NCBI GenBank assembly: GCA_013151745.1
Contig: JAADHS010000233.1
Span: forward strand, 1 to 59,224
Length of the DNA: 59,224 bases
Source: Gammaproteobacteria bacterium
GTDB taxonomy: Bacteria > Pseudomonadota > Gammaproteobacteria > JAADHS01
Direction of reading: 5' to 3'
Positions 98-51,446 of the stretch are shown here, piece by piece; within the stretch, counting starts at the first letter, position 1, and each line of letters opens with the position of its first letter. The position numbers were made by a program, and so were the translations under genes. The notes under the pieces were generated by a model that worked only from the letters and a program-made list of their open reading frames with translations, searched no databases and had not been told where the DNA came from.

Positions 98-1468
98 ATA
101 GGTGTTCGGGATTAATTATCTAAAATATCAATAACTTGTGGGAAACTCCCTCTCAATCCGTTAGATTGTTTGTGCAAGCAAATAATTTATCGGAAGAAAA
201 GGAGTTCACCGTGGAAAAAGATAGCATTCTAAATGTGCTTAAGCAAACGTTTAAACAAGTCATTCCAGCACAAGATAAACGAACAAAACTACCTCACTTG
301 AAATTTGTCTCAGGTTTTATTTTTTGTTTTCTCGGCGATACAAAAACTTCTTCTTTGGAAGCGATTAGGCGATTCATGATCAACACGTTTGAAATGTCCA
401 TTGGTAAAGGGACTTTCTGGGAACGTTTATCCAGAAATAGATTGAAAAATATTCTACGTGACATACTGGCGGATTTAATAAAGAAACTCCCTTCCCAAGT
501 CATCGCAGGAGAAGAAATACTCAGCAAGCTAAAAGTAACGTCAATACTGCTCATTGACTCAAGTTCAATATCGCTTTGGGACGGTGCCCAAGAATCCTTT
601 CCTGGCACTCGAACGTACGCGGGAATTAAGTGGCATGCCTGCTTTAATCTATTGTCTGGAAAAATGGAGTGGTTCTCAACATCATCGACATCAGTGAATG
701 ATCGAAAGTATTTTCCCAACGTGGATGGGTTAAAAGGAAAACTGATTATTTTTGACTTAGGCTATTGGGATTATAGTCTCTTCAGTGAGATTGCTTTAGC
801 ACAAGGGTTCTTTCTATCAAGGATTAAAAGCAATGCGGTGGTCTCGATTAGTGAAATTGTAAAAGGGATTAGCAGTGAGTTAATTGGCGAAAAACTATCT
901 TCAATTCACCTGAAAAAGAGACGCGGAAGAATTATCGAATTTTATGGCGAAGTCGGATGTAAAAACCCTAAACGTCATAGAATTATTGGGTTTTGGAATA
1001 AAACAGATAAAAAATATCACTGGTATGTTACTAATCTTGACGTGTGTTCATCGGCAATCTATTCGCTCTATCGAATTCGTTGGCAAATTGAATTAATATT
1101 CAAAGGTTGTAAGCGTTCGTTAAACTTGGATGGTAAAACGACATCAAACAATAATAACATTATTGAATCGTTGATATTGTCCTCCATCATTGCCAGTTTT
1201 GCGATGCACCTTGTTTATAGAGAAAGTGCGAAAGGACTGACAAGTCGACAAAAATTGGCAGTATCGTTTCAAAGGTTAAATCATGTGGTCGTCTTATTAG
1301 CGCAAGATTTTATAAACTATTTAACACTGGCCAACTATTTTAAGAAATTGAGCAGAAAAATTAAATTACTATCTCGTGAGATATATGAGAAAAATCATGA
1401 GCACAGACGTACGACGTTACAGATTTTAGCTGACGACTTGAAGTGCGGGTAAAATCCCGAACACCTAT
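98..1468 (+). mobile_element. IS4-family insertion sequence, 1371 bp, complete
   Basis: The element is bounded by a perfect 16-bp inverted repeat, ATAGGTGTTCGGGATT at 98-113 and its complement at 1453-1468, and encodes one transposase whose stop codon abuts the right repeat. No target-site duplication is visible: the left flank reads TATCCCCTC and the right flank GGTGAATCA. The right flank is a hipA pseudogene, but bases 1-97 do not read as the missing hipA 5' part in any frame. The copy may therefore have mediated a deletion or recombined with another copy. Confidence 0.9.
211..1452 (+). CDS. IS4-family DDE transposase
   Basis: This is the transposase of the surrounding IS, 413 aa from the GTG at 211. 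That start was chosen because AAAAGGAG lies at 197-204; the frame is open upstream to 136. It has the IS4-type RNase H-fold catalytic triad: D about 116 in LLIDSSS, D about 182 in IIFDLGYWD, and E about 294 in the family's Y-R-E-K signature, here YRIRWQIELIFKGCK. A basic C-terminal tail follows. All catalytic residues are present and the frame is intact, so the element may still be active. The IS4 subgroup cannot be told by eye. Confidence 0.93.
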   Translation: MEKDSILNVLKQTFKQVIPAQDKRTKLPHLKFVSGFIFCFLGDTKTSSLEAIRRFMINTFEMSIGKGTFWERLSRNRLKNILRDILADLIKKLPSQVIAGEEILSKLKVTSILLIDSSSISLWDGAQESFPGTRTYAGIKWHACFNLLSGKMEWFSTSSTSVNDRKYFPNVDGLKGKLIIFDLGYWDYSLFSEIALAQGFFLSRIKSNAVVSISEIVKGISSELIGEKLSSIHLKKRRGRIIEFYGEVGCKNPKRHRIIGFWNKTDKKYHWYVTNLDVCSSAIYSLYRIRWQIELIFKGCKRSLNLDGKTTSNNNNIIESLILSSIIASFAMHLVYRESAKGLTSRQKLAVSFQRLNHVVVLLAQDFINYLTLANYFKKLSRKIKLLSREIYEKNHEHRRTTLQILADDLKCG

Positions 1469-2622
1469 GGTGAATCAGGCTGCTTTACTTACCGGTTAAC
1501 GGGACAGCAGTGACCTTAAATAAAGATACTTTTCTCGGATTGCCTGGTTTATTAGCGGATGCCTTACCGGATAAGTTTGGTAACAGTATGATTGATGCGT
1601 GGCCGCAATGGCCGGGACAGCGCAAGCTTTAGCCCCGTTGAGCGTCTTTGTTATACGGGCCGGCGTGGTATGGGGGCCTTGGAGTTTGAACCCGCAATGA
1701 TGGGGAAATTTGATGCTTCGGTTTCTGTAGAAGTATCAGACCTGGTTGCGCTCGCACAGGATGTAATGAAAGAAAAAAAATTCTAGAAACAGAATTGGGC
1801 TGTGCTGAAAACGAAAATTCGGATGCCATTTTGGACATTCTTCGAGTCGGTACGTCGGCTGGAGGGGCAAGACCCAAAGCTGTGATTGCGATGGATGATC
1901 AAGGCCATATTCGATCGGGTCAAGTCAAGGCACCTGTGGGTTATGATTATTGGTTGCTTAAATTTGATGGTGTGACTGATCTGGAGCTGGGTGAACCCAG
2001 AGGCTACGGGCGTATTGAATATGCTTATTATTTAATGGCAAAAGCGGCCGGTATCACGATGACGGAATGCCGGTTGCTAGAAGAAAATGGTCGTGCGCAT
2101 TTTATGGCAAAACGGTTTGACCGGGTGGATGATAAAAAACTTCATATGCAATCTCTTTGTGGTATTGCCCATTATGATTTCAATAGAGCGGGTGTCTATA
2201 GTTATGAGCAAGCTTTTACCGTGATGCGCAAGTTACGTTTAAGTAAAGCGGAAGCTGCTGAGCAATTCAAGCGTATGGTCTTTAGTGTTGTGACTCGTGA
2301 CCTTGATGATCATACCAAAAATATTTCTTTTTTAATGGCCGCCGATGGTAAATGGACATTATCACCCGCATACGATGTCACTTATGCACACAACCCTGCC
2401 GGAAAATGGACCCATCAACATCAGATGAGTATTAATAACAAGCGTGATGGTTTCAGTCGGCAAGATCTCATCACCCTTGCCGACTCTATTAATTTAAGTC
2501 AAGCGGATGAAATAATTAATCATGTGGTGAGTGCAGCAGAAAAATGGCCTGAATTTTCTAAAACAGCAGGAATAAAGTTTAAAGTTATGGATGAAATTAA
2601 AAGCAATCATCAGCTACTATAA
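1469..2622 (+). pseudogene. hipA: HipA-family Ser/Thr kinase (toxin), decayed
   Basis: HipA kinases phosphorylate targets such as glutamyl-tRNA synthetase and cause growth arrest; they are normally paired with HipB. Here the coding sequence is split over frames. Segment 1 reads TFLGLPGLLADALPDKFGN. Segment 2, from about 1592, reads GRDSASFSPVERLCY and stops at 1786. Segment 3, from about 1786 to 2622, reads ILRVGTSAGGAR, then WLLKFDG and the catalytic DDHTKNISF with LSPAYDVTYA. There are frameshifts near 1600 and 1785. The N-terminal 60-80 residues are absent because an IS lies directly upstream, and no hipB is visible. Segment 3 (275 codons, TTG at 1795) keeps the kinase core but lacks the N-terminal lobe, so it is probably non-functional. 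Confidence 0.85.
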
Positions 2623-2691: not shown

Positions 2692-3837
2692 ATGCTCATC
2701 CACACGGTAAAAGTTCTGTTGACGATGATTGTGTTGTCGTTTGCATTAACCCCTCTCGTGGTATTGGGTCAGGACACGGTTAAAACGGAAGAATATTCGC
2801 TGCGAATCACAACGCTAACCACTGGCCTTGAACATCCATGGGGGCTTGCATTTTTACCCGATGGCCGTATGTTAGTGACGGAACGTTCAGGCCGTTTGCG
2901 TGTCATCTCTGAAAAAGGTGTGCTTGACTTCAAACCGGTAACGGGTTTACCTCAAATTGAGAGCGACGGTCAGGGTGGTTTGTTGGATATTGTTCTTCAT
3001 CCAGATTACGCGAAAAATGCCTGGCTCTATTTTTCTTATGTGGCATCGGGCAAAGACGGCAGCGGTACGGAGGTGGCGCGTGCCCGGCTTGATGGTTATC
3101 GCCTCAAAGATGTCCAGATCCTATTTCGTATGGAGCCCAAGCTGCGTAGCACGCATCACTTCGGCTCGCGACTGTTGTTTGATGAGCAAGGCTATCTTTA
3201 TATTACGTTGGGTGACCGGGGTGATAAAAATGAAGCGCAACAATTAAATAATCATGCGGGTACAGTGGTTCGCTTGCACGACGATGGCAGCCTGCCCCCG
3301 GATAACCCTTTTAGCAAGCACAATCATGCCAAAGCAGAAATTTATACTTATGGCCATCGTAACGTGCAAGGCATTACTCAAAATCCTTGGAGTAAGGCAA
3401 TTTGGGTGCATGAACACGGCCCTCAAGGGGGGGATGAAGTTAATATATTGAAACCGGGAACGAATTACGGCTGGCCAATCATCACCTACGGCGTAAGTTA
3501 CGGTCTGGGTTTTAAAATTGGCGAAGGTACGGCGAAAGAAGGCATGGCTCAACCCATTTATTATTGGGTTCCTAAATCTATTGCGCCCTCCGGCATGGTT
3601 TTTTATAACGGTAATTCGTTTCCTGAGTGGCGTGGTGATTTGTTTTTGGGTGCGTTGCGCGATGAAATGCTGGTCAGGTTGGAGATCAAAGGTGAAAAAG
3701 TGATGAAAGAAGAGCGTCTATTAAAGGGAAAATTGGGGCGCATTCGCAATGTCAAAATGGGCCCCGACGGTTATCTTTATTTGCTTGTGGATGATGCTCG
3801 TAACGGTAAGCTGGTCAGGCTGGAACCTGCGAAATAA
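2692..3837 (+). CDS. PQQ-dependent aldose sugar dehydrogenase (YliI/Asd type), periplasmic
   Basis: Soluble six-bladed beta-propeller dehydrogenase of the glucose/sorbosone family; relatives oxidise aldoses in the periplasm using PQQ. It has 381 aa with an N-terminal signal peptide (hydrophobic core about residues 8-24). Family motifs include LEHPWGLAFLPDGRMLVTER near residue 47, STHHFGSRLLFDEQG, YGHRNVQG, HGPQGGDE and NYGWP. The start is supported by AGAGGAG eight bases upstream. It is followed 27 bp later by a PqqU-like receptor in the same direction. PQQ dependence is inferred from the family. No PQQ synthesis genes occur in the window, which fits use of imported cofactor. Confidence 0.9.
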   Translation: MLIHTVKVLLTMIVLSFALTPLVVLGQDTVKTEEYSLRITTLTTGLEHPWGLAFLPDGRMLVTERSGRLRVISEKGVLDFKPVTGLPQIESDGQGGLLDIVLHPDYAKNAWLYFSYVASGKDGSGTEVARARLDGYRLKDVQILFRMEPKLRSTHHFGSRLLFDEQGYLYITLGDRGDKNEAQQLNNHAGTVVRLHDDGSLPPDNPFSKHNHAKAEIYTYGHRNVQGITQNPWSKAIWVHEHGPQGGDEVNILKPGTNYGWPIITYGVSYGLGFKIGEGTAKEGMAQPIYYWVPKSIAPSGMVFYNGNSFPEWRGDLFLGALRDEMLVRLEIKGEKVMKEERLLKGKLGRIRNVKMGPDGYLYLLVDDARNGKLVRLEPAK

Positions 3838-3864
3838 TGGTTTGATACAGAGAGTCGCAATGAC

Positions 3865-5922
3865 GTGAAAACGCCTGGATTCATAACTCCATGGGTATAT
3901 TACACCATCTTGCTTATTTGTTTTCCTTTTGTCTCTGTGGCGCAAATACGGACTTCTTCGGAACCCCTTCGTATTACAATTACTGCCGGACGTCTAGACA
4001 ACGTTTTGGCGGAAACGCCCGCGGCGGCCAGTGTGCTGACCGATGATGCCCTCCACGGCGGGCGCCAGCAACTCGGCCTGGACGAAGTTCTTGCCGGTGT
4101 CCCCGGTGTTTTTGCGGTTAACCGCTATAATTTTGCACAAGATTTACGTCTATCCATTCGCGGCTTTGGTGCCCGGGCTAATTTCGGTATCCGTGGCGTG
4201 CGTATTTTGATCGACGGTATTCCCGCGACGACACCAGATGGCCAATCGAGCGTCGATGATATTGATCTTGATATTTTGGAACGCATAGAAATCATCCGTG
4301 GCCCCGCAGGGGCACTTTATGGTCCTTCTGCGGGCGGAGTGCTGAGTCTAAAAACTCAACAAAGCAGGACGACGCCTAATGTAGTAGGTAGTCTAAAGAG
4401 TGGTGCTTACGGTGTTCGTGAAATTCGTCTTAAGGGCAGCAATACGCACGGTAACCTGGGTTATGCGCTTAATGTTGCACGACTGTCTATCGATGGCTAT
4501 CGAGCGCAATCTGCTGCCGAAAGAGAAGTATTCAATGGCCGGTTAGACTATAATTTTAAAAATAACGGTGAACTGACGGCGACACTGGCGTTGCTTGATG
4601 CACCATTAGCGCAAGATGCGGGTGGGCTGACGATAGAACAAGTACGTGCCGACCCGCGCCAGGCGGCACCGCTTAGTTTGCGCTTTGATACCGGCGAATC
4701 TGTGCGTCAGCAGAGACTGGGTTTGCACTCTCGCCATCCTCTTGCCGATGGCTCTGAAGTGCGCTTAAGTGGTTACTTTGTACAGCGCGACTTTGCTAAT
4801 CGCTTGCCATTTAATATCATCGAATTGGATCGCCGTTTTGGTGGCGTGGGGGTGGAATATCAGCGTGAAACGCAGTGGTTCGGTGCATTTGGACGATGGC
4901 TACTGGGCGTTGATCTCGACTATCAAAACGATGAGCGCCGTCGTCGTGAAAACCTGGACGGCAGGGCAGGGAATTTACGTTTTAATCAGCGCGAAAGCGT
5001 GATGAATAACGGTGTTTTTATCGCCTACGAACAACAACTGACGCAACAGTTACGCCTGGATGTTGGCTTACGTTATGATCGTTTGCGTATTGTGGCGAAT
5101 GATCGCTTTTTGAGTAACGGCGATGATTCAGGTGTCGTAAATTTTGCGCATTGGAGTCCGAGCGCTGCGTTACTCGTGCAAGCAGGCAGGGCCATTCAAC
5201 TTTATGCTCGTATTGCGACGGGTTTTGAAACCCCGACGACAACTGAACTTGCACGTATTGATGGTAGCGGTGGTTTTAACAGTACGTTAAAACCGGCAAC
5301 GTCAGTGAATTATGAAATGGGTGCGCGTGTCATGCTCGCGCCCAATATACATATAGAAGCTGCATTATTTCAGATTAACGTTGACGATCAACTGGTTCCT
5401 TTTGAAATCGTCGACTCACCCAATCGCTTCGCTTTTGAAAATGCCGGTCGTTCTCGCAACCGAGGTTTGGAATCGGCGCTGTCTTTTGGGGAGTACTCAG
5501 GATGGGGGTTACAACTGGCGTACACTTATTCGGATTTCAGATTCATTGAGTTTACCGATAAAAATAATTTGGCACTGACGGGTAATAACTTTCCCGGTGT
5601 ACCTGTTCATTTGTTGAATTTGGAATTGCGGCATCGTCACTCATCAGGTCTTTATACCGCTCTTGAGACTCGGTATACGGGTCGTTATTACGCAGATAAT
5701 CTCAATACCGTTGACATTATTTCATCTTTCAATAGTAGCTTGCGTCTAAGTTATCCCCATTTTGTTGGTCATTGGCGGATTAATGTCTCTGCTGGAGTCA
5801 ATAATCTTTTCGATGAAAACAGCTACTCAAATGTGCGTTTGAATGCTAATGCGGGGCGTTACTTCGAACCTGCACCAGGCCGTCATGGATATTTGGGGCT
5901 TAGTGTGGGTCGTGATTTTTAA
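3865..5922 (+). CDS. pqqU: TonB-dependent receptor, probable PQQ receptor PqqU (YncD-like)
   Basis: Outer-membrane active transporter, 685 aa: signal peptide (about 1-27), plug domain (about 35-150), then a 22-strand barrel. It starts at a GTG; the alternative would be internal. From memory it shares long blocks with E. coli YncD, renamed PqqU after being shown to import pyrroloquinoline quinone: the plug block FAQDLRLSIRGFGAR with DGIPATTPDGQ, the GFETPT block, and the terminal GRYFEPAPGR. Its position directly after a PQQ-dependent dehydrogenase supports the same substrate. A siderophore role cannot be excluded by eye, but the neighbour and the matching blocks make PQQ the better guess. The last residue is Phe, as expected for BAM recognition. 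Confidence 0.82.
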   Translation: MKTPGFITPWVYYTILLICFPFVSVAQIRTSSEPLRITITAGRLDNVLAETPAAASVLTDDALHGGRQQLGLDEVLAGVPGVFAVNRYNFAQDLRLSIRGFGARANFGIRGVRILIDGIPATTPDGQSSVDDIDLDILERIEIIRGPAGALYGPSAGGVLSLKTQQSRTTPNVVGSLKSGAYGVREIRLKGSNTHGNLGYALNVARLSIDGYRAQSAAEREVFNGRLDYNFKNNGELTATLALLDAPLAQDAGGLTIEQVRADPRQAAPLSLRFDTGESVRQQRLGLHSRHPLADGSEVRLSGYFVQRDFANRLPFNIIELDRRFGGVGVEYQRETQWFGAFGRWLLGVDLDYQNDERRRRENLDGRAGNLRFNQRESVMNNGVFIAYEQQLTQQLRLDVGLRYDRLRIVANDRFLSNGDDSGVVNFAHWSPSAALLVQAGRAIQLYARIATGFETPTTTELARIDGSGGFNSTLKPATSVNYEMGARVMLAPNIHIEAALFQINVDDQLVPFEIVDSPNRFAFENAGRSRNRGLESALSFGEYSGWGLQLAYTYSDFRFIEFTDKNNLALTGNNFPGVPVHLLNLELRHRHSSGLYTALETRYTGRYYADNLNTVDIISSFNSSLRLSYPHFVGHWRINVSAGVNNLFDENSYSNVRLNANAGRYFEPAPGRHGYLGLSVGRDF

Positions 5923-6088
5923 TGAAAAGCACACATAAGGCTCGAACGGGGTCTTTGATGGGTTGATTTGGTGACGCTAAGTGACTTTCAGAAAAAACGA
6001 TTCCGAGTCTATGTTTCTAGGGTAAACTTGTTGACGTACTTGTGCTACTCTCAGTGACTTGTCGTCAAAACAACAACAGGATAGGGGT

Positions 6089-7331: not shown

Positions 7332-7411
7332 TTTAAAATATCCCTTGTGATTTTCGTTTTTTTTAAACCCTATCGTTGTATAAATTGTAGGTGCAGGTGC
7401 TTTTAGAGTAG

Positions 7412-7479
7412 TATATACCTGTAGCGATTAAGGTTTGGTGTGATTGTACGCCCTTTTTATTCCCTCGCTACGATTTCTA
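7412..7479 (+). repeat. Partial copy of the TATACCCG palindromic element
   Basis: The left half of the repeat family described at 24288-24449 is present: TATACCTGTAGCGATTAAGG, then TTTGGTGTGATTGTACGCCC and ATTCCCTCGCTACG. The similarity stops where a TTCTCGGACAA repeat begins at 7480, and no right arm follows. It looks like a copy truncated by a later insertion or deletion. Confidence 0.6.
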
Positions 7480-15146: not shown

Positions 15147-16670
15147 TGCGTCCTCTACCAGCATATGTAAATTATCATCCTCTATATCATAAATCCATAT
15201 GTCATATGGCCCATCATAACGGAGACTTCTTTCAAAGGCTATCTTGCCCGCAGATGGAGAAATGGTAATATTGCCAATATACTCATTTTCCAGCTCAAGA
15301 AGCATGTTAGTGCTGCCAGTATTCAAGTTATGTTTGTATAGCCTATAGAAAGTACGCTTCTGCTGGTCAAATCTATTTCCTGTACCTACTCGCATTGAAA
15401 TAATAAATCCACTGCCATCAGGCAGCCATTCGATATCTAAAATATGGCATCTGTCTACACCAGAGTAATTTGGTGCATCATAGTGACAGAAGCCAAGGTC
15501 GATACGTTGTAATCGATCCAGGGTATCCATATCCGAGTCACTGGTTGAGCTGAGATAGATGCGATCTGCAAAATAATGATGTATCACCAACAATAATTTT
15601 TCATCCTCTGTCGGCGAAAGTTTTATATGTGTTGGGTCATTTTCATAAGTTTTAAAAAGACCAATTCCGGCTCCTCTGTTACCAGGAGAAAGATTTTCAC
15701 TATTACTCATCGTAATGCTGTAATTTTCAAAGTTGTCACTTGAAGGCCCGTCAGAAAAGTTATCAATGCCGGCAATTCTCGTAAACAGAATCTTTTCTCC
15801 ATTATAGTTCCAGGAAGGCTGACGTACTGTCAGGCAGTGCATAAACTTGATATCCCACGCATCGAAATCTTGAGCAATTTCAATAGTTTCTCCCTCCACT
15901 ATATCTGCCGATCCAGCCACGTCATAGCGGCACATTCTCCGACGGTTATAACCAAAGTAGCCCACTACAGCATATTGGCGAATACCCGCGCCAAAATCAG
16001 CAACGTCGTTAAAAGGTATGCGCCAATTCTCGGCAGAAGCAGCAAGCCAGGTAGCGTTAGTTGAAGCCCCTTCTATATAAGCCCAAAAATTAGTTCCCCC
16101 ACTCCGAAAATTTTGACTATAGAGCTTTGCTCTCCCTTTTGGATAGCTCTCAAAATATCTGGGCTCAGGTGGATTGGTAATCTTTCGTAGATAGTTGCCA
16201 TCGGCTGCTATGGCATACAGATCGCGACCATAATAAGACATGCCAAACGCATGATCGCTATCAAAAGCCAGTTCTGTACCATCAGGTCTCCAGGCCAGTG
16301 TTCCTATACGCGGTGATATTAAAAGATTTTCCGGAGCAGTCCAAAGCAATTTATCGTTACTACCATTACTTTGAATTAGGCGAATACTATTTTTTTTTCG
16401 GCTGGGAGATATGTACGCAATGGTATTAGCGATGACTGGGGAGATGTTTGCCGGTGAATTAAAACCACCAGTACTGACAACTGGGTCATCTGTGTCATCT
16501 GTGTCATCTGTACCATCTGTACCATCTGTACCATCTGTGTCATCTGTACCATCTGTGTCATCTGTACCGCCTGCACCATCAGTTGCTGGTTCATTGCTAC
16601 CACCACCACAACCAGGCATCGCTAATAAAAAGGGTATCAGAGCTATTACTATTACATGTTTATAATTCAT
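15120..16670 (-). CDS. Lipoprotein with TolB-like beta-propeller
   Basis: 516 aa. A signal peptide ends in LLAMPGC, a plausible though imperfect lipobox, so it is probably a lipoprotein. Residues about 33-62 are a low-complexity Thr-Asp-Asp/Gly tract. The rest carries TolB/PD40-type repeats, seen as LAWRPDGTELAFDSD, YNGEKILFTR, EWLPDGSGF and SPSAGKIAFE, ending in APAWSPL. Such propellers mediate protein contacts; the partner is unknown. There is no link to the tol-pal genes here. The gene stands alone between the toxin-antitoxin system and a palindromic repeat. Confidence 0.82.
   Translation of the reverse strand: MNYKHVIVIALIPFLLAMPGCGGGSNEPATDGAGGTDDTDGTDDTDGTDGTDGTDDTDDTDDPVVSTGGFNSPANISPVIANTIAYISPSRKKNSIRLIQSNGSNDKLLWTAPENLLISPRIGTLAWRPDGTELAFDSDHAFGMSYYGRDLYAIAADGNYLRKITNPPEPRYFESYPKGRAKLYSQNFRSGGTNFWAYIEGASTNATWLAASAENWRIPFNDVADFGAGIRQYAVVGYFGYNRRRMCRYDVAGSADIVEGETIEIAQDFDAWDIKFMHCLTVRQPSWNYNGEKILFTRIAGIDNFSDGPSSDNFENYSITMSNSENLSPGNRGAGIGLFKTYENDPTHIKLSPTEDEKLLLVIHHYFADRIYLSSTSDSDMDTLDRLQRIDLGFCHYDAPNYSGVDRCHILDIEWLPDGSGFIISMRVGTGNRFDQQKRTFYRLYKHNLNTGSTNMLLELENEYIGNITISPSAGKIAFERSLRYDGPYDIWIYDIEDDNLHMLVEDASAPAWSPL
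16483..16578 (-). repeat. 9-bp minisatellite inside the lipoprotein gene
   Basis: About ten tandem 9-bp units alternate between GTCATCTGT and ACCATCTGT (plus strand) and encode Thr-Asp-Asp or Thr-Asp-Gly on the minus strand. Because the unit is a multiple of three, gain or loss of copies would change linker length without breaking the frame. Confidence 0.9.
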
Positions 16671-24178: not shown

Positions 24179-24535
24179 TTAGGTTTGAGCTAAACTCTTT
24201 TCCGCCCAAATCGATTTATTATCAAGTGATGTCTCCATTGGCGTTCGCCCACAGTACATCTTACCTTGATAAGTTTGCTTATTATTATATACCCGTAGCG
24301 ATTAAGATTTAGGTGTGATTGCACGCCCTCTTAATTCCCTGGCTACGTTGAAACTCCTCGCAATAGCCAGCTACACCTTGTCATTTCGCCTTGCCAGGAA
24401 ATGAATAGGACGCACACTCAACACCTAAATCTCAAGCGCTATGGGTATAGTATTTCATCCGTTCGTCCAGGTCTTTTTGTAATTCCTTCCTTGTTGAGTA
24501 AAATTTTTTCCTGAATGTGAGCTGATAACGCATTC
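24179..24535 (-). pseudogene. IS481-type transposase C-terminal remnant split by a palindromic element
   Basis: On the minus strand the text TFRKKFYSTRKELQKDLDER then MKY runs up to a palindromic repeat (24288-24449). It resumes after it with NNKQTYQGKMYCGRTPMETS and ends SIWAEKSLAQT, stop at 24179-24181. Joined, this matches the conserved end of IS481-like integrases (YNxxRTHQGKxCxGRTPxET). Everything upstream is lost, and an in-frame stop sits near 24535. The RND gene ends only 12 bp away. Confidence 0.75.
24288..24449 (-). repeat. TATACCCG palindromic element, complete copy (162 bp)
   Basis: The ends are TATACCCGTAGCG and, on the other strand, TATACCCATAGCG; arms of about 30 bp include ATTTAGGTGT. 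The interior (GCAATAGCCAGCTACACCTTG) is the reverse complement of that of the copy at 31222, so this copy is inverted relative to it. It interrupts a transposase remnant. The flanks suggest insertion at a TA dinucleotide (remnant text AAATA before, TAATAATAAG after). Confidence 0.85.
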
Positions 24536-31044: not shown

Positions 31045-31221
31045 TCATTTCTCTGAGTTGTTATTGCAAAATGTAGCAACCTTTAAGACGTCTTCGTTCG
31101 CCTGATTTTATGACGCAAGACTTTTCTTGACAGGATATTTTAGCAATGGTAGCTTGTTTTCTTCAAGCGACATTGCTGTGCTTATCTATATGTAATTAGA
31201 TATCGCTTTCAAATTTACAAA

Positions 31222-31389
31222 TATACCCGTGGCGTTTGAGATTTAGGTGTTAAGTGTGTGTCTTACTTTATTTCATTTCATGGCAAGGCGAAATGACGAA
31301 GTGTAGCTGGCTATTGCGAAGATTTTCAACCTAGCCAGTGAATGAATAAGGCGTGCAATATCACCTAAATCTTAATCGACACGGGTATA
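31222..31389 (+). repeat. TATACCCG palindromic element, complete copy (168 bp)
   Basis: Left end TATACCCGTGGCGTTTGAG with ATTTAGGTGTTAAG, right end CACCTAAATCTTAATCGAC then ACGGGTATA. The interior includes GCAAGGCGAAATGACGAAG and GTAGCTGGCTATTGCG, matching the 24288 copy in reverse. It ends 26 bp before the ATG of the next gene. The remaining part of the 383-bp gap (31033-31221) shows nothing else recognisable. Confidence 0.88.
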
Positions 31390-31415
31390 TATTCAATGCG
31401 CCTCATGGATTGTGT

Positions 31416-42455: not shown

Positions 42456-42650
42456 CATACCCGTGGCACTTGAAGTTCAGGAGGCGCCAGGGGCTAAATA
42501 ATGTTACATTCTGCTGGTCTATCATCCTGTATTTGGTTTTAGAAAAGGGTGATGTATTGAGTAATAGCAGGCTATTGAGAGGCATTTGCAACGCAGTCAT
42601 GGAATGTAGGGCGTACACTTAGCGCCTGAATCTTAATCGCTACGGGTACA
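42456..42650 (+). repeat. TATACCCG palindromic element, diverged copy (195 bp) abutting sdhC
   Basis: Left end CATACCCGTGGCACTTGAAG, right end GAATCTTAATCGCTACGGGTACA. The centre keeps GAGTAATAGCAGGCTATTGAG and CGCAGTCATGGAATG but is longer than in other copies. The sdhC ATG starts at 42652, one base after the element, so the whole leader of the sdh operon lies in it. The rest of the ygfZ-sdhC gap (42340-42455) holds no other recognised feature. Confidence 0.8.
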
Positions 42651-42651
42651 T

Positions 42652-43035
42652 ATGGTCACCAAACAAAAACGACCCATATTTCTAGATTTGAGGCGGATCC
42701 GTTTTCCGGTCACGGCTTTCACCTCTATACTACACCGAATCAGTGGTGTAGTTTTGTTTCTATCCATACCTTTTCTAATACAGTTATTGGCCATGTCCTT
42801 GGCAAATGAAATAGCGTATGAGCGTGCGGTTGAATTACTAAATGAAATCTGGGTGAAGCTGTTTTTGTGGATTGCATTGTGGAGTTTACTGCATCATTTG
42901 CTGGCCGGAATTCGGTTTTTATTCCTTGATATCGATGTAGGTGTCGCGCTAGAACAAGCACGTCGATCAGCACGTTGGGTTAATATTGTTGCCGCAGCAG
43001 GGGCTGTTATTATTGGCTGGGTCGTGTTGTTATGA
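42652..43035 (+). CDS. sdhC: Succinate dehydrogenase cytochrome b556 subunit
   Basis: Membrane anchor subunit of complex II, 127 aa with three TM helices. N-terminal KRPIFLDLRRIRFPVTAFTS and SILHRISGV (quinone-site region); heme ligand in SLLHHLLAGIRFL. Alignment with E. coli SdhC from memory supports the ATG at 42652, although no Shine-Dalgarno precedes it: the bases upstream are the end of a palindromic repeat. It overlaps sdhD by 4 bp. Confidence 0.94.
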   Translation: MVTKQKRPIFLDLRRIRFPVTAFTSILHRISGVVLFLSIPFLIQLLAMSLANEIAYERAVELLNEIWVKLFLWIALWSLLHHLLAGIRFLFLDIDVGVALEQARRSARWVNIVAAAGAVIIGWVVLL

Positions 43036-45159: not shown

Positions 45160-45242
45160 TATACTCGCGGCGTTTGAGCTTTAGGTGTTAAGGAATGAAG
45201 AGGGCGTACACCACCACCTAAATCTTAAGCGCCGCGGGTATA
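45160..45242 (+). repeat. TATACCCG palindromic element, short internally deleted copy (83 bp) between sdhA and sdhB
   Basis: Left arm TATACTCGCGGCGTTTGAGC with TTTAGGTGTTAAGG, right arm CACCTAAATCTTAAGCGCC then GCGGGTATA. Both arms are intact, but the usual 80-100 bp centre is missing, so the RNA would form one long hairpin of about 30 bp. It lies within the operon, 48 bp before the sdhB ATG. Confidence 0.85.
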
Positions 45243-45290
45243 TACGTCGCTCAATAAATTCGGTCACAGTTCAAAATGGGGTATGGCGTC

Positions 45291-51228: not shown

Positions 51229-51247
51229 GTATGGTGGGGGGACTTAC

Positions 51248-51400
51248 TATACTTGTGGCGTTTGAAATTTAGGTATTAACACGCGTTCAATTTATTTCAT
51301 AGCTAGTCAAAATGACAAGGTATAGCCCGCTATTTCTAGGGATTTTAACGCAGCCATGGAATGAAGAAACACGACCTAAATTTCAATCGTCACGGATATA
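51248..51400 (+). repeat. TATACCCG palindromic element, complete copy (153 bp)
   Basis: Left end TATACTTGTGGCGTTTGAAA with TTTAGGTATTAAC, right end GACCTAAATTTCAATCGTC then ACGGATATA. The centre has CAAAATGACAAGGTATAGCC and GCTATTTCTAGGGATTTTAACG, in the same orientation as the 31222 copy. It lies 20 bp from the preceding palindrome. Confidence 0.85.
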
Positions 51401-51446
51401 TATGCTTCCTGATGGTCTGTTCAAGAAGCAGACCGCTGTGATCAAG

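Follow-up and report, generated by a model that had tools for sequence, protein, structure and literature searches.

A putative two-gene unit for the import and use of pyrroloquinoline quinone in a gammaproteobacterium and its distant relatives

Why should a bacterium that appears unable to make pyrroloquinoline quinone (PQQ) carry the gene for a PQQ-dependent sugar dehydrogenase, and why should that gene adjoin one for a TonB-dependent receptor? The question is raised by a 59,224-nt contig stretch of Gammaproteobacteria bacterium (the window), in which positions 2692-5922 of the plus strand hold a glucose/sorbosone dehydrogenase (GSDH) of the six-bladed Asd type followed by a receptor of the PqqU type (Table 1). 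That PqqU is a PQQ importer, that GSDH/Asd enzymes exist and that PQQ can be scavenged without being synthesised is already known; PMC12124388 takes as its thesis that PqqU is a widespread importer through which non-synthesising bacteria scavenge the cofactor. The evidence set out below indicates that the two genes very probably constitute a two-gene 'import and use' unit for PQQ, a reading drawn from sequence comparison.

The first open reading frame (ORF) encodes a GSDH that matches PF07995 across profile positions 1-332 of 332 (E 5.9e-135; 450 bits against a curated cut-off of 25). Its closest solved relatives are the glucose dehydrogenase of P. aeruginosa (7cdy, 348 bits) and the glucose/sorbosone dehydrogenase of E. 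coli (2g8s, 340 bits). All 41 aligned GSDHs have residues H156, R223, G243, R350 and R352; 40 of them have P244, and 34 have N224. The equivalents of these residues in soluble glucose dehydrogenase (sGDH), R228, N229, G247, P248, R406 and R408, were assigned by eye from alignment blocks, and H156 presumably corresponds to H144. The roles of the catalytic His (H156), the Arg residues that contact PQQ (R223, R350, R352) and the Ca2+ loop (G243/P244) follow PMC6881789. The E. coli protein, YliI, is an established PQQ enzyme that has been reconstituted in vitro (PMC13088180).

The second gene encodes a receptor with plug and barrel domains, as found by profile search. Among 29 NCBIfam families, PqqU ranked first (NF041535, 410 bits), leading the next model, for a siderophore receptor (180 bits), by 230 bits, with a B12-receptor model at 77 bits. 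Solved structures gave the same picture: E. coli YncD/PqqU (6v81, 9c4o) scored 322-324 bits and every other receptor below 50 bits. The window receptor is identical to E. coli PqqU at 210 of 633 aligned positions. The PqqU signature published in PMC12124388, Y/F/W at 99 with R at both 304 and 365, is present in the form of F107, R308 and R358 (Y99, R304 and R365 in E. coli numbering), accompanied by R521 (R536) and Q92 (Q84). It is carried by 129 of 138 aligned receptor rows. E. coli and the window are counted in this set, as are some cut genes and duplicate rows; five of the nine failures are cut genes (L094, L095, L098, L153, L154) and four are real (L023, L040, L045, L053). Counted by locus, the signature occurs in 76 of 80.

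In a tree of 54 rows, E. coli PqqU and the window receptor fall among 44 PqqU-type rows and apart from ten outside rows, which are unnamed next-best TonB receptor homologues rather than characterised siderophore receptors; the branch dividing the two groups has a support of 93, below the starred level. The signature is found in 42 of the 44 PqqU-type rows and in none of the ten others. Identity as a siderophore or B12 receptor was rejected on the strength of the model ranking, the Protein Data Bank (PDB) ranking and the tree. The initial annotation, made from the nucleotide sequence, had named a PQQ sugar dehydrogenase followed by a PqqU-like receptor; both frames are intact and lie 27 nt apart, the PF07995 and NF041535 matches bear out the names, and the receptor does group with E. 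coli PqqU rather than with siderophore or cobalamin receptors. Two pocket types are suggested among the receptors, one with Lys274 and Tyr481 as in E. coli, the other with Glu or Gln and a gap or other residue at 481.

Nothing in the search for PQQ synthesis speaks against the scavenging that the initial annotation had proposed. The genome (3.70 Mb in 292 contigs, 95.55% complete) yielded no PqqE-like gene, its best match scoring 28.8 bits where the cut-off, passed by 10 of 94 genomes in the same search, is 381; PqqA, PqqB and PqqD were not searched for. A PqqC search gave no match in this genome, nor in any control genome. The bacterium appears unable to make PQQ, and because of this its GSDH would depend on the neighbouring importer. 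One PF07995 gene was found at E 0.001 or better, that of the window GSDH, and the sole PQQ_2 (eight-bladed) gene is BamB. BamB is ruled out as a second client, being an assembly factor that lies beside genes which, from the usual gene order, we take to be YfgM- and HisS-like. Since there is a single GSDH and no eight-bladed quinoprotein besides BamB, the only evident client of the receptor is the GSDH next to it.

In the proposed unit, the receptor would take scarce environmental PQQ across the outer membrane in a TonB-driven step. PQQ and Ca2+ would then load onto the periplasmic apo-GSDH encoded next door, and the loaded enzyme would oxidise aldose sugars and deliver electrons to the respiratory chain. 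PQQ import and enzyme activation are predictions here, as are the sugar that is oxidised and the acceptor of its electrons. The scheme builds on the identity of the two genes, their conserved residues, the lack of a PqqE-like gene, the single evident client and a linkage that recurs elsewhere.

The nearest recurrence is in a sister genome (L011; Gammaproteobacteria bacterium isolate D100SM.bin.11), where the pair is intact and 77-80% identical to that of the window. Nucleotide homology of 76% joins L011 6919-10034 to window 2772-5925; both flanks differ, a comparison of 11 further L011 genes gave no match in the window, and similarity outside the pair is confined to a short interspersed repeat. 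At the thresholds applied, neither gene is present in the two same-family genomes (G001, G002).

Among the 369 genomes of the class sample, the receptor search gave 45 matching genomes at a threshold of 1e-80, of which seven with only 278-314 bits were set aside to leave 38 PqqU genomes. An Asd-type GSDH (1e-80 or better) occurs in 28 of these 38 and in 77 of the 331 others (Fisher p 1.1e-9, or 29 of 45 and p 7.7e-8 with the seven kept), phylogeny and genome size being ignored in this and the later co-occurrence statistics. GSDH lies within 600 bp of PqqU in 4 of the 28, drawn from four families (G000, G254, G393, G451), where about 0.03 would be expected (28 x 0.0012). Of the 41 rows of a GSDH tree, 11 are linked to PqqU, a label that requires at least five changes, four of them forced by well-supported branches; the changes may be gains or losses, and the unlinked rows are mostly best matches of chosen genomes. 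The linked cases comprise the window and L011, Nitrosomonas, Ancylomarina of the Bacteroidota (L081), G254 (L208) and G393 (L209). Gene order varies among them, GSDH being upstream in the window and L081, downstream in Nitrosomonas and G254, and divergent in G393. Relatives of the window pair also show the two genes linked. A more distant PF07995 protein (164 bits) adjoins PqqU in G040; two Ectothiorhodospiraceae (G103, G125) have Asd-type GSDHs of 458 and 422 bits that are not beside PqqU within the flanks examined, and Nitrospinota gave only weaker PF07995 matches (139.9 bits in G096, 155 bits in G131, E 1e-8 in G137).

GSDH is not the only PQQ enzyme to be found beside PqqU. Within a set of 80 PqqU loci, GSDH is the neighbour in five (L011, L075, L081, L085, L089), a PQQ alcohol dehydrogenase in three (L031, L043, L063; that of L031 scores 455 bits where its model has a curated cut-off of 480) and a convergent membrane glucose dehydrogenase in two (L068, L073). 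Beyond this set, a quinohaem alcohol dehydrogenase overlaps PqqU in G039 (L168) and a membrane glucose dehydrogenase lies beside it in G493 (L198). Three kinds of enzyme that have their cofactor in common accompany one type of receptor, which argues that its substrate is PQQ. For distant PqqU homologues, whose substrate had previously rested on residue signatures and modelling (PMC12124388), this linkage supports PQQ, much as the initial annotation had expected of the adjacency. The commonest same-strand neighbour of PqqU is an LrgB-family gene, which accounts for 6 of the 57 neighbours scanned, apparently in Marinobacter (probably L044, L050, L056, L057, L066 and L069, assigned by ORF size).

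Linkage is frequent in Nitrosomonadaceae. Of 81 genomes sampled around N. marina, 63 matched the receptor. Three (G150, G154, G210) have a protein that belongs to the outside receptor group and lacks the signature; without them, 60 PqqU genomes remain. GSDH (1e-60 or better) was found in 38 genomes, all among the 60 carriers (p 7.7e-8, or 1.3e-6 with the three kept). In 32 of the 38, it is encoded within 5 kb downstream of PqqU on the same strand; the distance is no more than 600 bp in 21, and the remaining six genomes show no linkage. The intervening genes include a D-2-hydroxyacid dehydrogenase in G178 (L160 4136-5170), and an HpcH/HpaI-like protein with one further, unassigned protein in G158 (L157 4138-6111).

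The 2025 PqqU survey reported no PQQ enzyme in 40 Nitrosomonadaceae; the Pfam models that it lists are PF01011, PF13360 and PF13570, all of them for eight-bladed quinoproteins and without PF07995, and a further dehydrogenase profile was also used (PMC12124388). A strong PF01011 match was found in 1 of our 81 genomes, in agreement with that report. In one of the family's two PqqU lineages, the PF07995 GSDH is a likely client. The other 22 PqqU genomes appear to carry a different lineage (loci L141, L142, L164-L167), with an E. coli-like K274/Y481 pocket in all five of the genomes inspected. No Asd-type GSDH was found in these 22, PF07995 scores being at most 133 bits (at most 73 bits in four), and no PF01011 enzyme was found in them either.

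Several observations weigh against regarding the window pair as a unit for PQQ import and use. A quinoprotein is a near neighbour in 10 of the 80 PqqU loci, some of which have short flanks, and most PqqU genes are without one. In the class sample, an Asd-type GSDH is lacking from 10 of the 38 genomes with PqqU, and the neglect of phylogeny and genome size tempers the co-occurrence statistics. Co-transcription of GSDH and receptor is suggested by their spacing; the promoter and terminator scan showed no excess over shuffled sequences, with no promoter of the sigma-70 type upstream of GSDH and no terminator-like site in the 27-nt gap. Finally, the receptor falls short of the 1200 bits that NF041535 sets as its equivalog cut-off, and it has E278 at the position of E. 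coli K274.

It is conceivable, though unlikely, that the functions are as proposed and the adjacency is incidental, the importer serving the whole periplasm and the linkage reflecting nothing other than common descent. Most linked cases do come from one family, and in 24 of the 28 PqqU-GSDH genomes of the class sample the genes are not within 600 bp of each other. Common descent fits poorly, however, with the five label changes (four forced) required by linked GSDHs and with their differing gene orders, and L011 homology ends at the borders of the pair; moreover, a single GSDH is present in the genome itself, where the search for other dehydrogenase clients gave none.

Import of a siderophore, cobalamin or sugar-like compound, with the GSDH alongside by chance or for carbohydrate use, is highly improbable. 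The signature, the nesting of E. coli PqqU within the window receptor's own group, the low scores of siderophore and B12 models and the three PQQ enzyme kinds near PqqU elsewhere, with the cofactor as their common feature, all stand against it. In its favour, TonB receptors switch substrate easily, the equivalog cut-off is not reached, and E278 replaces a functional residue: K274E inactivated E. coli PqqU, yet Glu is noted in many homologues (PMC12124388). The cut-off is probably suited to close orthologues of the E. coli protein only; since the score falls short of it, the name is kept at that of a diverged, PqqU-type homologue. That the pair is a decaying remnant, as an IS4-family transposase and HipA-type fragment just upstream and the repeat copies in this insertion-rich stretch might suggest, is scarcely credible given that both frames are complete, all the catalytic and binding residues checked are present and the L011 pair is likewise intact.

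An import-and-use unit for PQQ therefore remains the preferred account, and the scavenging role put forward in the initial annotation is supported as far as sequence can take it. No description of PqqU paired with a six-bladed GSDH was found in the literature searched, subscription papers being outside its scope. The present analysis adds that the pair recurs and that it fits the question of PqqU carriers without an apparent quinoprotein: GSDH is a probable user of imported PQQ in some of the bacteria in which no such user had been apparent. Rather more tentatively, PqqU and GSDH may form a transferable, self-contained import-and-use unit that has been joined or has arisen several times, and that would be an overlooked reason why some 'quinoprotein-less' bacteria, especially one PqqU lineage of Nitrosomonadaceae, import PQQ. 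If so, nitrifiers that live autotrophically would be oxidising aldoses from their surroundings in the periplasm, by means of a cofactor that neighbours make and that serves them like a vitamin. This physiological claim is weaker than that for the unit itself, and the question can now be tested in culture, for instance in Nitrosomonas marina Nm71 (L075).

The surroundings of the pair are summarised in Table 1. They include an interspersed repeat of ~162 bp that resembles a miniature inverted-repeat transposable element (MITE), with terminal inverted arms of 27-32 nt and several copies in the window.

Table 1. Coordinates of the paired genes and of neighbouring features (window positions unless another locus is named)
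Feature	Position	Strand	Remarks
GSDH/Asd-type (six-bladed) PQQ-dependent sugar dehydrogenase	2692..3837	+	381 aa; ATG start; N-terminal signal-peptide-like stretch
Intergenic gap	3838..3864	+	27 nt; spacing consistent with co-transcription
PqqU-type TonB-dependent receptor	3865..5922	+	685 aa; GTG start
IS4-family transposase	136-1452		Profile matches; upstream of the pair
HipA_C kinase-like ORF	1795-2622		275 aa; without the usual N-terminal part; adjoins the IS4-family transposase
MITE-like repeat, full copies	24288-24449, 31221-31391, 51245-51402
MITE-like repeat, partial copies	7409-7472, 42565-42652, 45192-45244
MITE-like repeat, one copy in sister genome	L011 locus 15573-15735

Of the known systems, E. 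coli PqqU (YncD; PMC12124388, 6v81, 9c4o) offers the closest parallel for the receptor, with which it shares the fold family, full-length homology and positions Y/F99, R304, R365, R536 and Q84; it acts in a cell unable to make PQQ, as the window receptor appears to do. The window receptor differs in having E in place of K274, T in place of N477 and a gap aligned to Y481. It is also paired with the gene of a PQQ enzyme, an arrangement not taken up in the consulted sections of PMC12124388. The dehydrogenase resembles E. coli Asd/YliI (2g8s) and P. aeruginosa 7cdy as a six-bladed GSDH with the catalytic His, PQQ-binding Arg and Ca2+ loop. It falls on a different tree branch from YliI and has R323 at the position of sGDH Lys377, where E. 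coli has Lys; unlike either enzyme, it adjoins a presumed cofactor importer. The placing of importer beside client is shared by the PqqU loci with alcohol dehydrogenases (L168 of G039, L043, L063, L031) or membrane glucose dehydrogenases (L068, L073, L198). There, however, the client is an eight-bladed quinoprotein, a class described in PMC6881789 as having no sequence homology with six-bladed PQQ enzymes such as GSDH.

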